In this document: positions 1 to 11,398 of the stretch, piece by piece
Numbering within the stretch: position 1 is the stretch's first letter
How the letters are laid out: every line of letters starts with the position of its first letter
Origin: Flavobacteriaceae bacterium
GTDB taxonomy: Bacteria > Bacteroidota > Bacteroidia > Flavobacteriales > Flavobacteriaceae
DNA: 64,000 nucleotides
Direction: 5' to 3'
NCBI GenBank assembly: GCA_024643385.1
Contig: JAHEMZ010000003.1
Span: 14,821-78,820, forward strand
The notes under the pieces: model-generated
The model's input: the letters and a program-made list of their open reading frames with translations, nothing else
The model's database searches: none
What the model was told of the DNA's origin: nothing
Translations under genes and position numbers: made by a program

Positions 1-117
1 ACCTTCTATTCTACAATTTTAAAAATATGATGAATGTCATTATCTGCTTATGTAATCTATGTTACATTTACATCAGTTAAGAGTTAGTTTTTCATACTTA
101 ATTTAGTTTTCATATTG

Positions 118-146
118 AGCCTTGCTAGAAATAGCAAGGCTTTTTT
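118..146 (+). terminator. Rho-independent terminator of an off-window upstream gene
   Basis: A perfect 10-bp stem (118-127 with 132-141) closes a GAAA tetraloop and runs into six T residues (141-146). The gene it ends lies left of the window or in the first ~100 bases, where no convincing reading frame was seen. Confidence 0.9.
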
Positions 147-159
147 CTGATTAATATCA

Positions 160-190
160 TTGTAATTAACAAGGATCGAAGATACCTTTG
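160..190 (+). promoter_or_regulatory. Bacteroidota-type promoter for the mla operon
   Basis: TTG at 160-162 is followed after 20 bases by TACCTTTG at 183-190. This matches the known TTG-N~20-TAnnTTTG housekeeping promoter of Bacteroidota. Transcription should begin about six bases past the box, leaving a leader of roughly 18 nt before the ATG at 215. Confidence 0.75.
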
Positions 191-3716: not shown

Positions 3717-3821
3717 ATCAAAATAAGTCTAATGGGAGCAAATTTCAACTGACTTTAGTCATAGTTAAAGCCTTAGGTAAGTGATATATTTATTCTTAAA
3801 ATCATTTTAAACGGCTGCTCT

Positions 3822-4197: not shown

Positions 4198-5919
4198 ATG
4201 AGTATTCTCTCGGGAATTGGAATTAAATTAAAGTCGGTGAACCGATACAATCAGATCTTAAAAGTTTTGATCAAGTATGGTTTTGAGGATCTGGTGCAAT
4301 ACCTTGAAGAAAAAAAGAAATACTCGTTCTTGCGAAAGCTGGTTCCAAACTCTGCCCGTAAACATGCTCTTAAATACACCAAGTGGGAAAAGATGCGATT
4401 GGTTTGTGAGGAGCTCGGCCCTACCTTTGTTAAATTCGGACAAATATTGAGCAATCGGCCGGATCTTATTCCGTTAGACCTAACCTTCGAATTAGAGAAA
4501 TTACAAGACAAAGTGCCTCCCATGCCCGAAGAGATAGCCAGGAAGGTTGTGGAAGACGAATTACACGATAAAGTAGAGAATTTGTTTGCCTGGTTCGAAC
4601 CGAAGTCCTTCGCCTCCGCCTCCATGGCACAGGTGCACAAAGTGACACTTCACGACGGTAATAGGGTCGCCCTCAAGATACAAAGACCGGGGATTGAGGC
4701 GATCATTCTGGAAGATATTAAAGTGATGTATCGAGTGGCTCGCTTACTTGAAACTCGTCTACCATCCGTGCAGAGTTTTGATCCCGTAGGATTGGTAAGT
4801 AATTTTGAAGAATCCATTCTGAAAGAAATGGATTTTATCAACGAATCTGTGAATGTTCAACGTTTTTACAATAATATTCACAACGATAAATCTAAGGATC
4901 AATTTGCCGATTCTCCGAAGGTCTATCAGCAATATACCACCACCAAGATCCTAGCCCTTGAATTTATTTCAGGAATTAAAATAGATAATATCAATGAATT
5001 AAAAAGCAAAGGTTTTGACGTACAAGTGGTTGCCAGAAGACTCACAAAAAGTTTTTTTAAGCAGATCTTTGAATACGGTTTTTTTCATGCAGATCCACAC
5101 CCCGGTAACCTGCTGGTGTTGCCGGACGGCAAGATCGGTTACCTGGACTTCGGAATGATGGGAAGCATCCTTCCAAGAGATATTGAAGTCTTCGGAAGGT
5201 TATTCATGGCAATTACGCGTAAGGATATTAATAAGATCATAAAAGCACTTCAGGAATTATCGAACGAAACCGTTATTACCGACATGCGAAAGCTGGAGTA
5301 TTCTATTTCAGAGTTTGTTGAAAAGTACTACACCAAATCGGTTCATAAGAACGAGATGAGCACCCTATTACTAGAGCTAAAGGACATTATCGTTATCCAT
5401 GGTCTGAAAGTACCTGCGCACTTCTATCTATTCGCCAGATCACTTGTTACGCTTGAGGGTGTTGTGCAGAAACTTGATCCCAATCTGGAACAGTTCGAAA
5501 TTGCTCGTCCCTATCTATCAAATGCAATTAGTAAAAGCTTTGATCCCATTAAAATGGGGGAAAAAGCGATCAATTCTATTTACGAATTAAGTAGTTATAT
5601 GGAAGAATTCCCTCGAGACTTAAAAAATGCTATCCGAAAAATTAACAGCGGACAGATCAAAGTAGATCTCACTCATAAAGGGATCGATCCCATGGTCCAT
5701 ACCATCCAGAGAGTAACGAAGCAATTGGTAAGCGCATTCATTATTGTGGCTTTGATCATCGGAGCTGTATTGTTGATTGCGGCTCATGTAACACCTTTGT
5801 GGGGAGAAACGTCCGTATTTGGGGTTATATGCATCGTATTTGCCGGAATATTAGCAATGGGTATGTTGAGAGATATCAATAAAGGAGATTACGATCGCAG
5901 ACATGAGCTGAAAAAATAA
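4198..5919 (+). CDS. ABC1/UbiB-family atypical kinase
   Basis: Membrane-attached protein-kinase-like ATPase of the AarF/UbiB/ADCK family (573 aa). The family KxGQ motif appears as KFGQ at 79-82. The ATP-site Ala-rich loop is ASASMAQVH, the lysine is in ALKIQRPG, the catalytic-loop equivalent HADPHPGN is at about 297-304 and DFG at 317-319. Two C-terminal membrane helices lie at about 510-555. In ubiquinone-making bacteria UbiB helps quinone synthesis. Flavobacteria generally use menaquinone, so the role here is probably different (lipid or quinone handling), which the sequence does not settle. Confidence 0.92.
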   Translation: MSILSGIGIKLKSVNRYNQILKVLIKYGFEDLVQYLEEKKKYSFLRKLVPNSARKHALKYTKWEKMRLVCEELGPTFVKFGQILSNRPDLIPLDLTFELEKLQDKVPPMPEEIARKVVEDELHDKVENLFAWFEPKSFASASMAQVHKVTLHDGNRVALKIQRPGIEAIILEDIKVMYRVARLLETRLPSVQSFDPVGLVSNFEESILKEMDFINESVNVQRFYNNIHNDKSKDQFADSPKVYQQYTTTKILALEFISGIKIDNINELKSKGFDVQVVARRLTKSFFKQIFEYGFFHADPHPGNLLVLPDGKIGYLDFGMMGSILPRDIEVFGRLFMAITRKDINKIIKALQELSNETVITDMRKLEYSISEFVEKYYTKSVHKNEMSTLLLELKDIIVIHGLKVPAHFYLFARSLVTLEGVVQKLDPNLEQFEIARPYLSNAISKSFDPIKMGEKAINSIYELSSYMEEFPRDLKNAIRKINSGQIKVDLTHKGIDPMVHTIQRVTKQLVSAFIIVALIIGAVLLIAAHVTPLWGETSVFGVICIVFAGILAMGMLRDINKGDYDRRHELKK

Positions 5920-5973: not shown

Positions 5974-6573
5974 TTATGCCTCTTGGAAGGCTTTCTTTAA
6001 ATGACTAAAAGCTTCTGAAATTTCACCTTGAAAATGATCCCATCGGGTCTCATCATTTTTAGTGAATCTGGATTTCAGTTCATTGATGAACGTATCGAAT
6101 TCTTTTTTACCCTTTTCGAACGAAGTTTTGGCTTCCACTGTTCCCTCTTCAAATTTTTCTTCCAATATCTCCAACTGAACCTTAAACATCTCTATCTCGA
6201 TCAATAAGATCGCGTAGAGCTTTCTAAGTTTTTGGTTGGACTTAATCTCAACTTCTATTTGATGAAGCAAAGAAAGTAAGTTCTTTTTCTGTTCTTTAAA
6301 TACGTCTGTTGTTTCAGCCTTACCCAATGCAAGTTGTACACGAAGTTCATCTAATTTGGCATGAAACTCCTCCAACTTTTCTTTTCCGGAAGTTACTTTG
6401 AATTTAGTTTCGTGAATAAAGAGATTCAATTTCTTTTTTGACTCTTCATATCTTTCTCGTGCTTCCGCTTTACCCAACGCAGCTTTTACTTGAAATTCTT
6501 CCATTTCAACCGCTGCCTTTCTTAACGCGTCAACCACTTTATCCATTAAGTGATCATTTCCATTTTCTTTCAT
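5974..6573 (-). CDS. Repeat-containing coiled-coil protein
   Basis: A 199-aa charged, helical protein with no signal peptide, membrane segment or known domain. It contains three related units: about 26-55 and 76-105 share the core LGKAE, then a Lys-rich helix, with a 50-residue period; a weaker third copy is around 136-166 (EGTVEAKTSFEKGKKEFDTF). The pattern suggests a long antiparallel helical bundle or rod. It is transcribed alone and converges on the UbiB operon. The start at 6573 gives MKENGNDH; no better alternative was seen. Function unknown. Confidence 0.85.
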   Translation of the reverse strand: MKENGNDHLMDKVVDALRKAAVEMEEFQVKAALGKAEARERYEESKKKLNLFIHETKFKVTSGKEKLEEFHAKLDELRVQLALGKAETTDVFKEQKKNLLSLLHQIEVEIKSNQKLRKLYAILLIEIEMFKVQLEILEEKFEEGTVEAKTSFEKGKKEFDTFINELKSRFTKNDETRWDHFQGEISEAFSHLKKAFQEA

Positions 6574-6790
6574 GACATATATATTTAGAATACAGATTAA
6601 ATGTCGATAATCACAAAATAGTATGCAATGAGCAATGTCATAAATTGCAGAATGTTGTGATCAAATGAATCCCGTTTTGAATGACATTGGTCATAGCGAT
6701 TGGAGGGATAAGAACTTAAGTTTGTAGGCTACTATAAACAATTTTTTTTAGGAAGAAATTTAAAAAGTAGTCGCTCCTTTTAAACTTTAT

Positions 6791-7381
6791 TTGGTGATCA
6801 TCAATAAAGAAATATGCCATGAACTGACCGACAACGAAATTGTCATACAATCGCTTGCCGACATGGATTATTTCCTGTGCCTTTATGAACGATATGAGTC
6901 GCGACTCCTGCGCTATATCCAACACATTACAATGGTAAGCGATGAACAGGCTAAAGATATTCTTCAGGAAGCTTTCATAAAAGTATGGCAAAATCTCCAT
7001 GGCTTTAATAAGAGTATAAAATTATCCAGTTGGATCTACAGAATAGTTCATAACGAGACCATATCGTATTGGAGAAGCAAAAAATCGTATGGAAAAGATC
7101 AAAAGGTCAAGTTGAATGAAAATCTCATCACACAAGCACCCGATGAATATGAAAGTAATGATGACCTGGAGAAAAAGGAGTTGTTAACTCATGAGGTATT
7201 GAAACTTTTACCGCTACAATACAAAACGATTTTAATTCTTAAATTTATTGAAGGCATGAGCTATCAAGAGATTTCTGATGTCTTGAAAATTCCCGAAGGA
7301 ACCGTTGCAACGCGGATTAATAGAGCAAAGAAGAGCTTTGTTAAAATTGCATCGGATAAAAATATCTCCTTTTTTGAATAA
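6791..7381 (+). CDS. ECF-type RNA polymerase sigma factor
   Basis: Sigma-70 family factor of the extracytoplasmic-function class (196 aa). Region 2 covers about 28-100 (YERYESRLLRYI, DILQEAFIKVWQNL, LSSWIYRIVHNETISYWR) and region 4 about 130-185 (LPLQYKTILILKFIEGMSYQEISDVL with helix-turn-helix, then IPEGTVATRINRAKKSF). The predicted start is TTG at 6791; GTG at 6794 or an ATG at 6863 are possible but the last would trim the N-terminus. The membrane protein next door starts ten bases after the stop, the usual place for an anti-sigma factor. Its targets may be the envelope genes immediately downstream (inference). Confidence 0.92.
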   Translation: MVIINKEICHELTDNEIVIQSLADMDYFLCLYERYESRLLRYIQHITMVSDEQAKDILQEAFIKVWQNLHGFNKSIKLSSWIYRIVHNETISYWRSKKSYGKDQKVKLNENLITQAPDEYESNDDLEKKELLTHEVLKLLPLQYKTILILKFIEGMSYQEISDVLKIPEGTVATRINRAKKSFVKIASDKNISFFE

Positions 7382-7391
7382 AACTATTGTC

Positions 7392-8120
7392 ATGGAAAAA
7401 TCAAAAACAATCATCGACAGAATTAAAGAGGGAAATATCAAGCAGCGACCTAAATTGTATTTTACCGGCGTCAATCTAATCTATTGGACCCTTTATATTC
7501 TATGTATCCTGCTTGGAGCGGCTTCTTTCTCCGTGATACTATTCTCCGTTCAACAAACCGACTTTAATCTCATCTCACATATGTCTCATTCGAATTTGGA
7601 ATTTATTCTGGCGTTGCTCCCATTTTTCTGGATTTTTATTTTACTTCTCGTTCTTTTTGTAGCCATGATTATTTTTCGGAAATCAAATAAGGGATATAAA
7701 TACAATCGACTGTATTTACTTGTGTTAAGTGCCACTTCAAGTATTTTATTAGGTACTGTGTTTTTTATCGGCGGAGGGGGGCAAAGACTTGAAAAGGCAT
7801 TTGCGGAAAGATTACCCTATTATGAAAGTGTAATGGACAATAAAAAGAAAGTATGGACAAATCCCGAGGAAGGATTCCTGTCCGGAACCATTCTGGAAAT
7901 AAGCGAAGAGGGTATCCTACTGCTTGATTTCAACAACATGGAATGGGATTTAGAATACAACAATGCTTTTATATCACCCAGAGTGACTTTGAAAAAGGGA
8001 GAACAAATAAAAATGATTGGTGAAATCACTCGATCAAAGCATTTTAAAGCCGAAGAAATTCGTCCGTGGAACGGGCCGCACTCCGGAAGTGGAGGGCATA
8101 AAAAAAGAGTTGAAAAATAA
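7392..8120 (+). CDS. Three-helix membrane protein, candidate anti-sigma factor
   Basis: A 242-aa protein starting at the ATG at 7392, ten bases after the sigma factor. A short basic cytoplasmic N-terminus (about 25 aa, ending RPKLYF) precedes three membrane helices at about 30-53, 70-97 and 108-128. The C-terminal ~110 residues lie outside and read like a small beta domain (SGTILEISEEGILLLDF, VTLKKGEQIKMIGEIT, AEEIRPWNGPH), resembling an OB-type fold. I know similar proteins beside ECF sigma genes in Bacteroidota from memory, but no named domain. Its short N-terminus lacks the classic zinc-binding anti-sigma motif, so the anti-sigma role is an inference from position and topology. Confidence 0.8.
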   Translation: MEKSKTIIDRIKEGNIKQRPKLYFTGVNLIYWTLYILCILLGAASFSVILFSVQQTDFNLISHMSHSNLEFILALLPFFWIFILLLVLFVAMIIFRKSNKGYKYNRLYLLVLSATSSILLGTVFFIGGGGQRLEKAFAERLPYYESVMDNKKKVWTNPEEGFLSGTILEISEEGILLLDFNNMEWDLEYNNAFISPRVTLKKGEQIKMIGEITRSKHFKAEEIRPWNGPHSGSGGHKKRVEK

Positions 8121-8363
8121 GGCATTTTATCTTTTTGCAATAACTGCTTACTTTTTACAAGATTCTTCAAAAACCGCAATTACTTCATTTAATAGAAGGT
8201 GGTATATTTTTCATAAATCCGCTTTTTTATGGAACTTCTTTACCTCCATTTACCCTATATCATAAGATTTTCACAAAAATATATTTTGCAGTGAAAGTAA
8301 TATTGGCCCTTTGCGTAGTACAATATGACTTTAGTTCTGTAATTAATTTTAAAATCTATAAAA

Positions 8364-9047
8364 ATGAAAAAGATCCTTTTATTATCTGTGTTTCTATTCC
8401 TCGGAATAGCATCGATTTATTCACAAGACCGAGATCAAGATCAAGATCGGGATCGTGACCAAGATCGATTAATGATGGTTGATGGCGATGTACTTCAAAT
8501 TAGAGACCGCGATCAAATAAGATTAAAAGATGAACTGGTACTCTATGATGGCACGATTGTAAAGCCCAACGGCACTTACCAAGCGCAAGATCGAGATCGA
8601 GATCAACTCCGCTTAAAAGATGGAGAATGCTTGGATATGGACGGTATAAAGTATCGAAATGAATACCAATATCGATATAAAGTACAACAAGAAAATAAGG
8701 GACTTTCACAAGCGCAAATTCAGGAAAGAAATCAAAATAGATTTCATGTGATAAATATTGATGGTGAAATGTATCAGGTAAAAAATCAATACCAGCAACG
8801 ACTTCAAGAACAATATGATTTTGCCAATGGAGAATCTATTTCACCCGATGGTAATATCATGAAACAAGGTCGTCAACAATTGCGTCTTGAAAATGGTGAA
8901 TGTTTGGATATGGACGGAAATAAATTTGAGAACGCCTATAAATATCGCAAAACAGTGATTCAAAAAAATATGATTAAAAACAAAAGTAAAATACAAACGC
9001 CAAAAAAACCGGCTATCGAAAAAAAGAAAGGTAAAATAGGTATTTGA
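8364..9047 (+). CDS. Secreted DQDR-repeat protein, DUF6799-like tandem
   Basis: A 227-aa exported protein with a clear signal peptide (about 1-20, cleaved after IYS). The mature N-terminus is a run of alternating Asp, Gln and Arg (residues 21-35), with a second short run at 75-81. Two related units follow (about 36-107 and 128-199), each ending GECLDMDG, the hallmark I associate with DUF6799. The C-terminus is Lys-rich and basic. The alternating acid/base run should form a charged, extended or self-associating segment. Function unknown. It sits between the candidate anti-sigma factor and two other envelope proteins, with 243 bases upstream that hold no gene. Confidence 0.85.
   Translation: MKKILLLSVFLFLGIASIYSQDRDQDQDRDRDQDRLMMVDGDVLQIRDRDQIRLKDELVLYDGTIVKPNGTYQAQDRDRDQLRLKDGECLDMDGIKYRNEYQYRYKVQQENKGLSQAQIQERNQNRFHVINIDGEMYQVKNQYQQRLQEQYDFANGESISPDGNIMKQGRQQLRLENGECLDMDGNKFENAYKYRKTVIQKNMIKNKSKIQTPKKPAIEKKKGKIGI
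8424..8468 (+). repeat. In-frame GATC-rich hexamer repeat
   Basis: The codons for Asp-Gln and Asp-Arg pairs repeat as GATCAA, GATCGG and GATCGT-like units, giving several GATC sites within 45 bases; a shorter copy lies at 8586-8606. The codons vary, so the repeat is kept at protein level and is not a fresh slippage expansion. Confidence 0.8.
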
Positions 9048-9092
9048 CAAATCACATAAGTATCCTTTTGTATAAAATTAATCTAGATTCAA

Positions 9093-10010
9093 ATGAGATC
9101 CGCTAGAATTAAGTTCGCAATGAGTATCATCTTAGTACTACTAAGCCCGGTAATGACATCACAAAATGAAGCGCTTACAACTAAAATGGAAGGTGACAAA
9201 TCTGATTTTTCAGTTGACTTAAATTACCTCAGTGATGCGGTTTTCATGGGAAGAAAAGATTCAATTGCAGCACCTTATTTATATCCTTCTATCGAATATC
9301 ATCATAGATCAGGTTTTTATACAAAAGGATCCTTCTCTTACCTCACTAAATCAAACCAAAGCCGGATTGATCTCTTCTTGATATCGGCCGGCTTTGATTT
9401 TACAAAAAACAAACTATTTGGTGATATTTCTGTCACCGCCTATTTCTTTAATGATGCCAGTTACAATGTATTGTCTGCGGCTTCGGCAGATATCACTGCT
9501 CATCTAGTCTATGACCTGGACATCTTGAACATTGGAGCAGCCGCCAGCACTTATTTCAATAATAATAGTAGTGCAGATTTCTTTATGACTTTTGATGTAA
9601 GTCATGATTTTATCACTACCGATCATAAACTTCAGGTGTCTCCGACAGTTAGTTTAAATATGGGATCCCAAAATTTTTATGAAGCGTATTATAACAACCC
9701 AAATAGCAGCTTGATCGGAAATGGAAGTGGAAGTGGCAATGGAGGCGGCAGTGGCAGTGGCAGTGGAGATGGATCTACAAGCGGAGATCCGATCCCTATT
9801 TTAAAAATTCAAGAAAAAGAAAAATTTAGCCTTTTGGCTATCGAATTTAGTGTGCCGATATGGTATAACTACGAATCAGCTACCTTTTTGTTCTTACCCG
9901 CCTACGTAATACCAAAAAGTGAAGCTACGATTTTTATTGAAGAAACATTGGTTGAAGAGCAATTAGACACAACCTTCTATTGGATGGTTGGTATTAGCTA
10001 TAAGTTTTAG
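9093..10010 (+). CDS. Putative outer-membrane beta-barrel protein with Gly/Ser-rich loop
   Basis: A 305-aa exported protein: signal peptide at about 1-23, alternating hydrophobic strands through most of its length, and a final residue Phe in ISYKF, as in outer-membrane barrels. A low-complexity Gly/Ser/Asn stretch at about 209-231 interrupts the barrel and would form a long flexible loop. The family is not recognised. It starts 45 bases after the DQDR-repeat gene and may share its transcript. Its own flexible loop and the poly-Gly tail of the next protein are a compositional parallel. Confidence 0.8.
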   Translation: MRSARIKFAMSIILVLLSPVMTSQNEALTTKMEGDKSDFSVDLNYLSDAVFMGRKDSIAAPYLYPSIEYHHRSGFYTKGSFSYLTKSNQSRIDLFLISAGFDFTKNKLFGDISVTAYFFNDASYNVLSAASADITAHLVYDLDILNIGAAASTYFNNNSSADFFMTFDVSHDFITTDHKLQVSPTVSLNMGSQNFYEAYYNNPNSSLIGNGSGSGNGGGSGSGSGDGSTSGDPIPILKIQEKEKFSLLAIEFSVPIWYNYESATFLFLPAYVIPKSEATIFIEETLVEEQLDTTFYWMVGISYKF

Positions 10011-10075
10011 ATCCACTAATATTCAAATATTCTAATTGTATCCGATATCTGAATAATAATTTAAAACCCAACATA

Positions 10076-11233
10076 ATGAAAACTACAAAATTAATTTTAG
10101 CGAGTTTTGGGTTCATTTTATTCGCATTGCTATTTGTGCAATGTCAAAAGGAAGAATTCATTACTAACGAAGACGTGAACTTCGAGGTGAAAAAGAACAA
10201 GCCTCCCACAGAAACTGCGGGAAATAACTTGTCATTTCCGGTGATTTGGTCTGACGGACATGAATTGGTCTTAAGAGACCCGCCGGTATTCGGTCCTCAA
10301 TTAGAAGATGAATGGTGGTACGTATGGGCGGAAGACCCAATCGATCCAAATTATCCTGTTTACAGCTGTAAACCTCTTTTATCCGATCCTACCCTTTGTG
10401 ATAACGGATCAGCACCCGGAGATGGGTCAAGTACCGTGTACAAAGCCTACCTACAGAAGAGGAATAATAACATTTGGCAAGCTTATAATGAGCCAGTATC
10501 AGAACCTTTAAATGTAGACCTCATTGACTGGGGTGACAACCTGGAATCTATAGATTGGTCCATTAGGTCTCAAGTAAGAACTGAACTAGTGATGTTCGAG
10601 AACTTTGATGTCCCGGTGATACAATATGCAATGAGACACGTTACCGGATGGGGAACAACTGAAATGCATGGATTGCAAACAGATCTCAATGATGAAATCG
10701 TTTATGGTCCCGGCGATATCGCAACCGTTTATTCCCATAATTCCAGAATGACCATCCAAAAATTAAATATTGATCGTGATTCCATCGTAGAAGGTAGTCT
10801 TACCTGGATCCCCTTTGAAGGATGGACTGAAACTGATCCAAACTCGGATGATCTAATCAATCAACCTATATTTAATTTAGCTGTTTATGAAGCAGGAGAC
10901 GGGCCCGGATATTTTTCGGCTGAAGTGAATATTAAAGGAAAAATAATCTATGGATACACTTGGAATGTAAGAGAGCTAAACGAAGGAGCCGGTTATTATA
11001 GAATTACCTATAGTTTTGATGAATCCGGTGGTCCGGTAGCCCTAAATACCTATTTTGACGAATTTACCGAAATTATAGTGCCGCTGGAAGAATCTTATAG
11101 ACCAGACCCAACTGTATCCCGAGGGGGTGTAGCTAAAATAGATGTCGAGAATAACCTTACCTATATGGATATTAGAATCTTACCCAAAGGCGGCGGTAGC
11201 GGCGGTGGCGGCGGAGGCGGCGGAGGTAATTAA
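10076..11233 (+). CDS. Unknown lipoprotein with poly-Gly C-terminus
   Basis: A 385-aa lipoprotein: hydrophobic signal with lipobox LFVQC, lipid-attached Cys at 23. The mature part is acidic and Trp/Tyr-rich, probably beta-rich (segments EDEWWYVWAEDP and GYYRITYSFDE). It ends in a Gly-rich tail of about 13 residues with a single Ser and a final Asn (about 372-385). No family was recognised. The preceding gene ends 65 bases upstream and the pair sits downstream of the sigma factor. Its likely place is the outer membrane, with the tail free; whether the tail is an anchor, linker or modification site cannot be told. Confidence 0.85.
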   Translation: MKTTKLILASFGFILFALLFVQCQKEEFITNEDVNFEVKKNKPPTETAGNNLSFPVIWSDGHELVLRDPPVFGPQLEDEWWYVWAEDPIDPNYPVYSCKPLLSDPTLCDNGSAPGDGSSTVYKAYLQKRNNNIWQAYNEPVSEPLNVDLIDWGDNLESIDWSIRSQVRTELVMFENFDVPVIQYAMRHVTGWGTTEMHGLQTDLNDEIVYGPGDIATVYSHNSRMTIQKLNIDRDSIVEGSLTWIPFEGWTETDPNSDDLINQPIFNLAVYEAGDGPGYFSAEVNIKGKIIYGYTWNVRELNEGAGYYRITYSFDESGGPVALNTYFDEFTEIIVPLEESYRPDPTVSRGGVAKIDVENNLTYMDIRILPKGGGSGGGGGGGGGN

Positions 11234-11369: not shown

Positions 11370-11398
11370 AAAAACCGAATCTTTCGATTCGGTTTTTT
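11370..11398. terminator. Bidirectional terminator, lipoprotein gene versus clpS
   Basis: ACCGAATC and GATTCGGT pair around a TTTC loop, flanked by an A-run and a T-run. It ends the poly-Gly lipoprotein transcript and can also serve the minus-strand clpS operon. The surrounding 11234-11467 holds no gene. Confidence 0.85.

Follow-up and report, generated by a model that had tools for sequence, protein, structure and literature searches.

Oxygen regulation as seen in the FixL-FixJ-FixK cascade and in the FNR regulons is among the closest described parallels to the locus reported here, a block of five genes (positions 6791 to 11233) that opens with a gene for an extracytoplasmic function (ECF) sigma factor and lies in a 64-kb window, i.e., a 64,000-nt stretch of contig JAHEMZ010000003.1 from a member of Flavobacteriaceae (GenBank assembly GCA_024643385.1). 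Like those systems, the window's genome combines a candidate heme-PAS kinase, a CRP-fold regulator, and palindromic sites in front of cbb3 oxidase genes; it differs from them in having the receiver and CRP domains fused, in its TAnnTTTG promoters, and in an ECF layer inserted before the envelope genes. That a two-component system can work by way of an ECF sigma factor is already known, with PorXY-SigP of Porphyromonas gingivalis as the precedent (PMC4800418). That comparison, from a two-component system to an ECF sigma factor to envelope or secretion genes in a member of Bacteroidota, extends only to how the systems work: PorX makes direct contact with SigP and the genes controlled are those of the type IX secretion system (T9SS), whereas the link proposed here would act on transcription by way of a CRP-type site, and it involves a three-helix membrane protein as the sigma factor's partner and other targets. 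The SM6 promoters of Flavobacterium psychrophilum are ECF-type and carry a CGT -10 box (PMC9723704) but differ in having T9SS genes among their targets. The DUF2202 loci of the flavobacterial genus g250 share with the window the same pair of sigma factor and membrane protein, the same promoter motif, and exported products; they differ in the DUF2202 cargo and in that the sigma gene there is under its own ECF-type promoter.

Judged by gene order and promoter comparisons, the block is two independent modules joined in the window's genome and not one inherited unit. It is probable that the sigma factor/membrane protein pair was inserted into an envelope island regulated by a CRP/FNR-type activator and took over the three envelope genes downstream, which would create a two-step cascade.

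The five genes and their gene order

All five genes proposed in the initial annotation were found on the + strand, and its readings of the low-complexity stretches, of the 10-base gap between the first two genes, and of the closing terminator hold as well. The sigma factor gene (6794..7381 from a GTG start at 6794, or from a TTG at 6791) encodes a protein of 195 residues with the Pfam domains Sigma70_r2 (residues 30 to 97; 8.6e-16) and Sigma70_r4_2 (residues 133 to 180; 5.7e-15), the two-region, approximately 200-residue form that defines ECF factors. The second gene (7392..8120, ATG start) encodes a membrane protein with exactly three hydrophobic helices (residues 35 to 53, 72 to 90, and 109 to 127) and a tail of ~115 residues, the proposed exported C-terminal domain; it lies directly beside the sigma gene, as genes for membrane-spanning anti-sigma factors do. 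After a gap of 243 bases, there follow the genes for an exported DUF6799 protein (8364..9047), an outer-membrane β-barrel protein (9093..10010), and a lipoprotein of an unnamed family with a poly-Gly tail (10076..11233). The block is closed by the hairpin AAAAACCGAATC-TTTC-GATTCGGTTTTTT (11370..11398), read directly in the sequence; it is absent from the output of the terminator scan, the T run being absorbed into the stem.

The three-helix protein has no match in Pfam or NCBIfam, and a single-sequence search of 150 relatives found none either. A wider phylum search recovered homologs in one family of green sulfur bacteria, recognized by its FMO protein (present in 8 of 8 tested genomes and in 0 of 14 control genomes). 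The window protein aligns over its full length with 11 of these homologs, and a sigma homolog is encoded directly upstream at 27 of the 29 green sulfur loci. The three-helix family may also occur in Patescibacteria. The same pair occurs in two flavobacterial genomes of genus g250, G435 and G274 (E values of 7e-63 and 2.5e-67), where it is much closer in sequence to the window pair than the green sulfur pairs are and is followed by genes for DUF2202 proteins; a literature search returned nothing on DUF2202 in connection with sigma factors. By these comparisons, the two genes are a conserved, portable pair with differing exported genes downstream in other lineages. Weak matches to the three-helix protein in genomes G179 and G527 were rejected, as no pair of the window kind is present there, and the nearest single-sequence matches to the sigma factor (loci L007 to L009) turned out to be ordinary ECF genes with no such membrane neighbor.

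The three-helix protein might instead be a membrane recruiter, or a cotranscribed product with some other function, and not an anti-sigma factor. Its cytoplasmic part is short (only ~25 residues precede helix 1) and no recognized anti-sigma domain is found in it with Pfam or NCBIfam, so that it cannot be placed in any described anti-sigma class. On the other hand, its linkage to the sigma gene is tight across two distant groups, and its N-terminal cytoplasmic tail (I..EIEKR..IPRWHF in the relatives) and cytoplasmic loop are both conserved, which is what contacts with a sigma factor would be expected to show. We consider this alternative, which would leave the other steps of the cascade unaffected, rather unlikely and treat the protein as a putative anti-sigma factor and sensor.

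The three envelope genes have a gene neighborhood of their own. The DUF6799 protein scores 77.1 bits against PF20606 (gathering cutoff, 26.8), carries a signal peptide and a stretch of alternating Asp/Gln/Arg (DRDQDQDRDRDQDR), and is 58% identical to its relatives; a literature search returned nothing on this domain. The exported barrel protein has a Gly/Ser/Asn loop (GNGSGSGNGGGSGSGSG); its barrel fold is predicted by AlphaFold with moderate confidence, Foldseek matches it to OmpG and FapF, and it stays below the cutoff of the TorF family putative porins (TIGR02001; 21.4 versus 47.15 bits). It is found in 18 of 400 Flavobacteriaceae genomes, and in all 16 strong-match loci that were read (L062 to L077), the DUF6799 gene is directly upstream. 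The lipoprotein family was found at 45 loci in several phyla; at 11, genes for DUF6799 and the barrel lie no more than 10 kb away, and several Lutibacter genomes have the three genes contiguous, in the order lipoprotein-DUF6799-barrel. Yeosuana (L019) and locus L025 retain the MlaE-type operon, the 199-residue neighbor (5974-6573 in the window), and the ABC1 kinase, with no sigma gene there. The low-complexity stretches of all three proteins are kept in relatives and are, for that reason, not due to chance. As far as gene order tells, the region from 8364 to 11233 is a conserved Flavobacteriaceae module that lacks a sigma gene.

The co-occurrence of all five genes across genomes, anticipated in the initial annotation, was not borne out: no sigma gene of this kind is near the DUF6799, barrel, or lipoprotein genes in the other strong-match loci, and among the 390 to 400 Flavobacteriaceae genomes sampled, both modules are found together only in the window's genome. 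We therefore rejected the five genes as one conserved unit. The suggestion that the block is a single sensor-response unit stands in part: the promoters described below support a regulatory link, whereas the gene order shows two modules and no ancestral unit.

Two predicted promoter layers and their probable exchange

Aligned DNA upstream of the relatives' DUF6799 genes yielded a CRP/FNR-type pattern, the palindrome TGAN6TCAT with its center 29 nt before TAnnTT. This distance to the -7 box, which in flavobacteria is TAnnTTTG (PMC9723704), is kept to the nucleotide in 21 of 25 distinct DUF6799 loci. In the window, this pattern precedes the sigma gene (6682..6724, + strand), a second layer of control that the initial annotation had missed: the palindrome TGACATTGGTCA (6682-6693) and the -7 box TAAGTTTG (6717-6724) match it exactly, with 29 nt from center to box, where 0.0024 matches are expected in that intergenic region. 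It is a palindrome at a fixed promoter distance, as in a CRP/FNR regulon, and with a position weight matrix (PWM) score of 15.9, it is one of four window sites scoring above 15. The exact pattern occurs four times in the window (0.33 expected), always within the first 6.8 kb. In 27 Bacteroidota loci (483 kb), it was found 53 times, compared with 3 for the reversed control, including sites ahead of the lipoprotein gene and, in Salegentibacter and Christiangramia, ahead of a CRP/FNR gene next to it. The window's genome has 42 sites (reversed control, 12), among them sites that precede genes for the cbb3 oxidase (COX1 and FixO), a pyruvate:ferredoxin oxidoreductase-like enzyme, universal stress proteins, and the MlaE-type operon.

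The DUF6799 gene of the window has no such promoter: the best PWM register upstream of it, starting at 8292, scores -6.5 bits, versus 21 to 35 bits in the relatives. At that register, GACTTTAG (8327..8334, + strand) may be what is left of an ancestral -7 box, TAnnTTTR. From this comparison, DUF6799 has lost its ancestral CRP/FNR-type promoter in the window's genome, whereas in the relatives the genes of the module would answer a CRP/FNR-type activator directly.

The initial annotation had proposed looking for a shared motif unlike TAnnTTTG in the promoters, and one does exist. The motif TGAAAG-N16-CGTA, found before the sigma gene and before the DUF2202 genes in G435 and G274, has 17 genome-wide matches there, 5 of them at sigma/three-helix/DUF2202 loci. 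Its only exact match in the window, TGAAAG-N16-CGTA-nnA at 8292..8320 (+ strand), is upstream of the DUF6799 gene and is also the only intergenic one of the 7 matches in the window's genome. The green sulfur loci offered an independent check: in 10 of 28, TGAAAG and CGTA, again 16 nt apart, are found on the coding strand within 420 nt downstream of the three-helix gene (reversed control, 0), where they precede a small exported protein, mostly Ala/Lys-rich. Such Ala/Lys-rich exported proteins of about 80 to 110 residues are encoded behind the motif in L084, L090, L092, L093, L095, and other loci. No clear motif had emerged from footprinting of the DNA ahead of the green sulfur sigma gene and of its DUF2127-like neighbor; the motif proved to be downstream of the three-helix gene. 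A sigma-70 promoter scan gave no more matches than expected by chance. With TGAAAG-N16-CGTA conserved beside the pair in three lineages, the sigma factor is predicted to recognize a CGT-type -10 element. The -35 element starts at 8292, the same base as the best register of the lost promoter, which suggests that one promoter was built over the other, the register score being too low to serve as proof.

Two simpler accounts of the promoters have to be weighed. In the first, the pair and the envelope module are chance neighbors: the pair landed here and regulates other genes, and the DUF6799-to-lipoprotein genes depend for transcription on an unrelated promoter or on a weak housekeeping one. The absence of any other sampled genome with both modules would fit this account, as would the lack of a genome-wide excess of the ECF motif, but it leaves aside the loss of the ancestral DUF6799 promoter and the presence of the motif, with its exact 16-nt spacer, upstream of that very gene, where the genome rate predicts about 0.001 site for the 573 intergenic bases of the block. 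We regard it as decidedly unlikely. In the second, a single CRP/FNR-driven transcript from 6682 reads through all five genes, and the sigma factor is unnecessary for the envelope genes. All genes are indeed on one strand behind a CRP/FNR-type promoter, and no + strand terminator was called between 8120 and 8364; nevertheless, the long gap between the three-helix and DUF6799 genes, with a separate ECF-type promoter inside it, makes such read-through highly improbable.

The proposed cascade and its candidate activator

In the favored two-step cascade, a CRP/FNR-family activator would bind the palindrome at 6682-6693 and switch on the sigma and three-helix genes, probably when oxygen falls; the three-helix protein would retain the sigma factor at the inner membrane and release it when its own outer domain receives an envelope cue; and the freed sigma factor would transcribe the DUF6799, barrel, and lipoprotein genes, presumably as a single transcript, from the promoter at 8292. 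Comparative data support the two modules, the two promoter types, and the promoter exchange. The fuller proposal, that a natural exchange gave the sigma gene the promoter of CRP/FNR type (an oxygen-linked one, probably) and gave the envelope genes that of the sigma factor, and so built a two-key circuit in which envelope output needs both low oxygen and a cue sensed by an undescribed class of three-helix anti-sigma factors, with a lipoprotein fold that may also be undescribed, is put forward tentatively, as somewhat less probable than not.

Several observations, besides the lack of an anti-sigma domain in the three-helix protein, weigh against this cascade. The ECF motif was read by eye from the noncoding DNA around the G435 and G274 pairs before scanning; it has 7 matches in the window's genome, versus 14 in the control, and a single intergenic instance gives no statistical excess there. 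Moreover, downstream of the three-helix gene, the motif is missing from 18 of the 28 green sulfur loci. Finally, the window's genome encodes two CRP-family proteins above the Pfam cutoff, so that the box-binding protein cannot be assigned to one gene.

The best candidate for binding the predicted CRP/FNR-type sites is probably the one with a receiver-cNMP-HTH_Crp fusion; its gene adjoins that of a PAS histidine kinase (locus L145, G000:C115:5845-8225) and a universal stress gene bearing such a site, within a cluster of universal stress genes with CRP/FNR-type sites. Among solved structures, the PAS domain of the kinase matches DosP and FixL best, and one of its histidines aligns with their heme-ligand position, consistent with possible oxygen sensing by this kinase.

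Neighboring promoters and envelope proteins

Upstream of the block, on the + strand, two further CRP/FNR-type promoters (28..190) precede the MlaE-MlaF-MlaD type operon (215-2754), and another (3750..3792) is found 72 nt before the gene for a 124-residue protein, ahead of the ABC1-kinase gene (4198-5919); all three were identified by pattern and PWM. A second palindrome (6629-6640) is present in the divergent intergenic region between the sigma gene and the minus-strand gene 5974-6573, 67 nt from the start of the latter, and may serve it, with an imperfect -7 box. In a Lutibacter metagenome-assembled genome (L035), four CRP/FNR-type palindromes are found upstream of DUF6799, one every 22 bp (two helical turns), and L030, L037, and L040 each have two, 22 bp apart.

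The lipoprotein has no match among Pfam models. Its structure model is confident (pLDDT 85), with no meaningful match among solved structures in the PDB by sequence or by fold, and the fold may be undescribed. The sequence C-Q-K-E-E-F that starts at its lipobox cysteine fits C-X-K-(D/E)2-X, the consensus for surface lipoprotein export (PMC5080379), and surface exposure is predicted from the form of this signal. The family extends over Bacteroidota, Gemmatimonadota, Desulfobacterota-like bins, Competibacteraceae, Chloroflexota, and other bins; outside Bacteroidota, a gene for a NarL-type response regulator is often nearby. In Yeosuana, the relative is duplicated in tandem and carries what appears, by eye, to be a T9SS sorting domain. 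In Fodinibius and Rhodohalobacter (L052 and L055), a lipoprotein relative is encoded next to an exported protein rich in Gln and to an outer-membrane-like protein that has a Gly-rich loop, a trio analogous to that in the window, with two companions of unrelated sequence. A distant barrel relative (L012/L078; G002:C67) is found in the order sigma factor, small membrane protein, Glu/Arg/Lys-rich exported protein, barrel.

The locus thus offers a concrete case of regulatory rewiring, in which, in one genome, an ECF layer would have been spliced between a conserved regulator of the CRP/FNR type and its targets among the envelope genes; more than 20 relatives show the ancestral arrangement. A second yield is a predicted promoter code for an uncharacterized pair of sigma factor and three-helix membrane protein common to green sulfur bacteria and flavobacteria. 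Finally, it places three poorly described families of envelope proteins in a probable low-oxygen regulon, where they may take part in remodeling of the cell surface.

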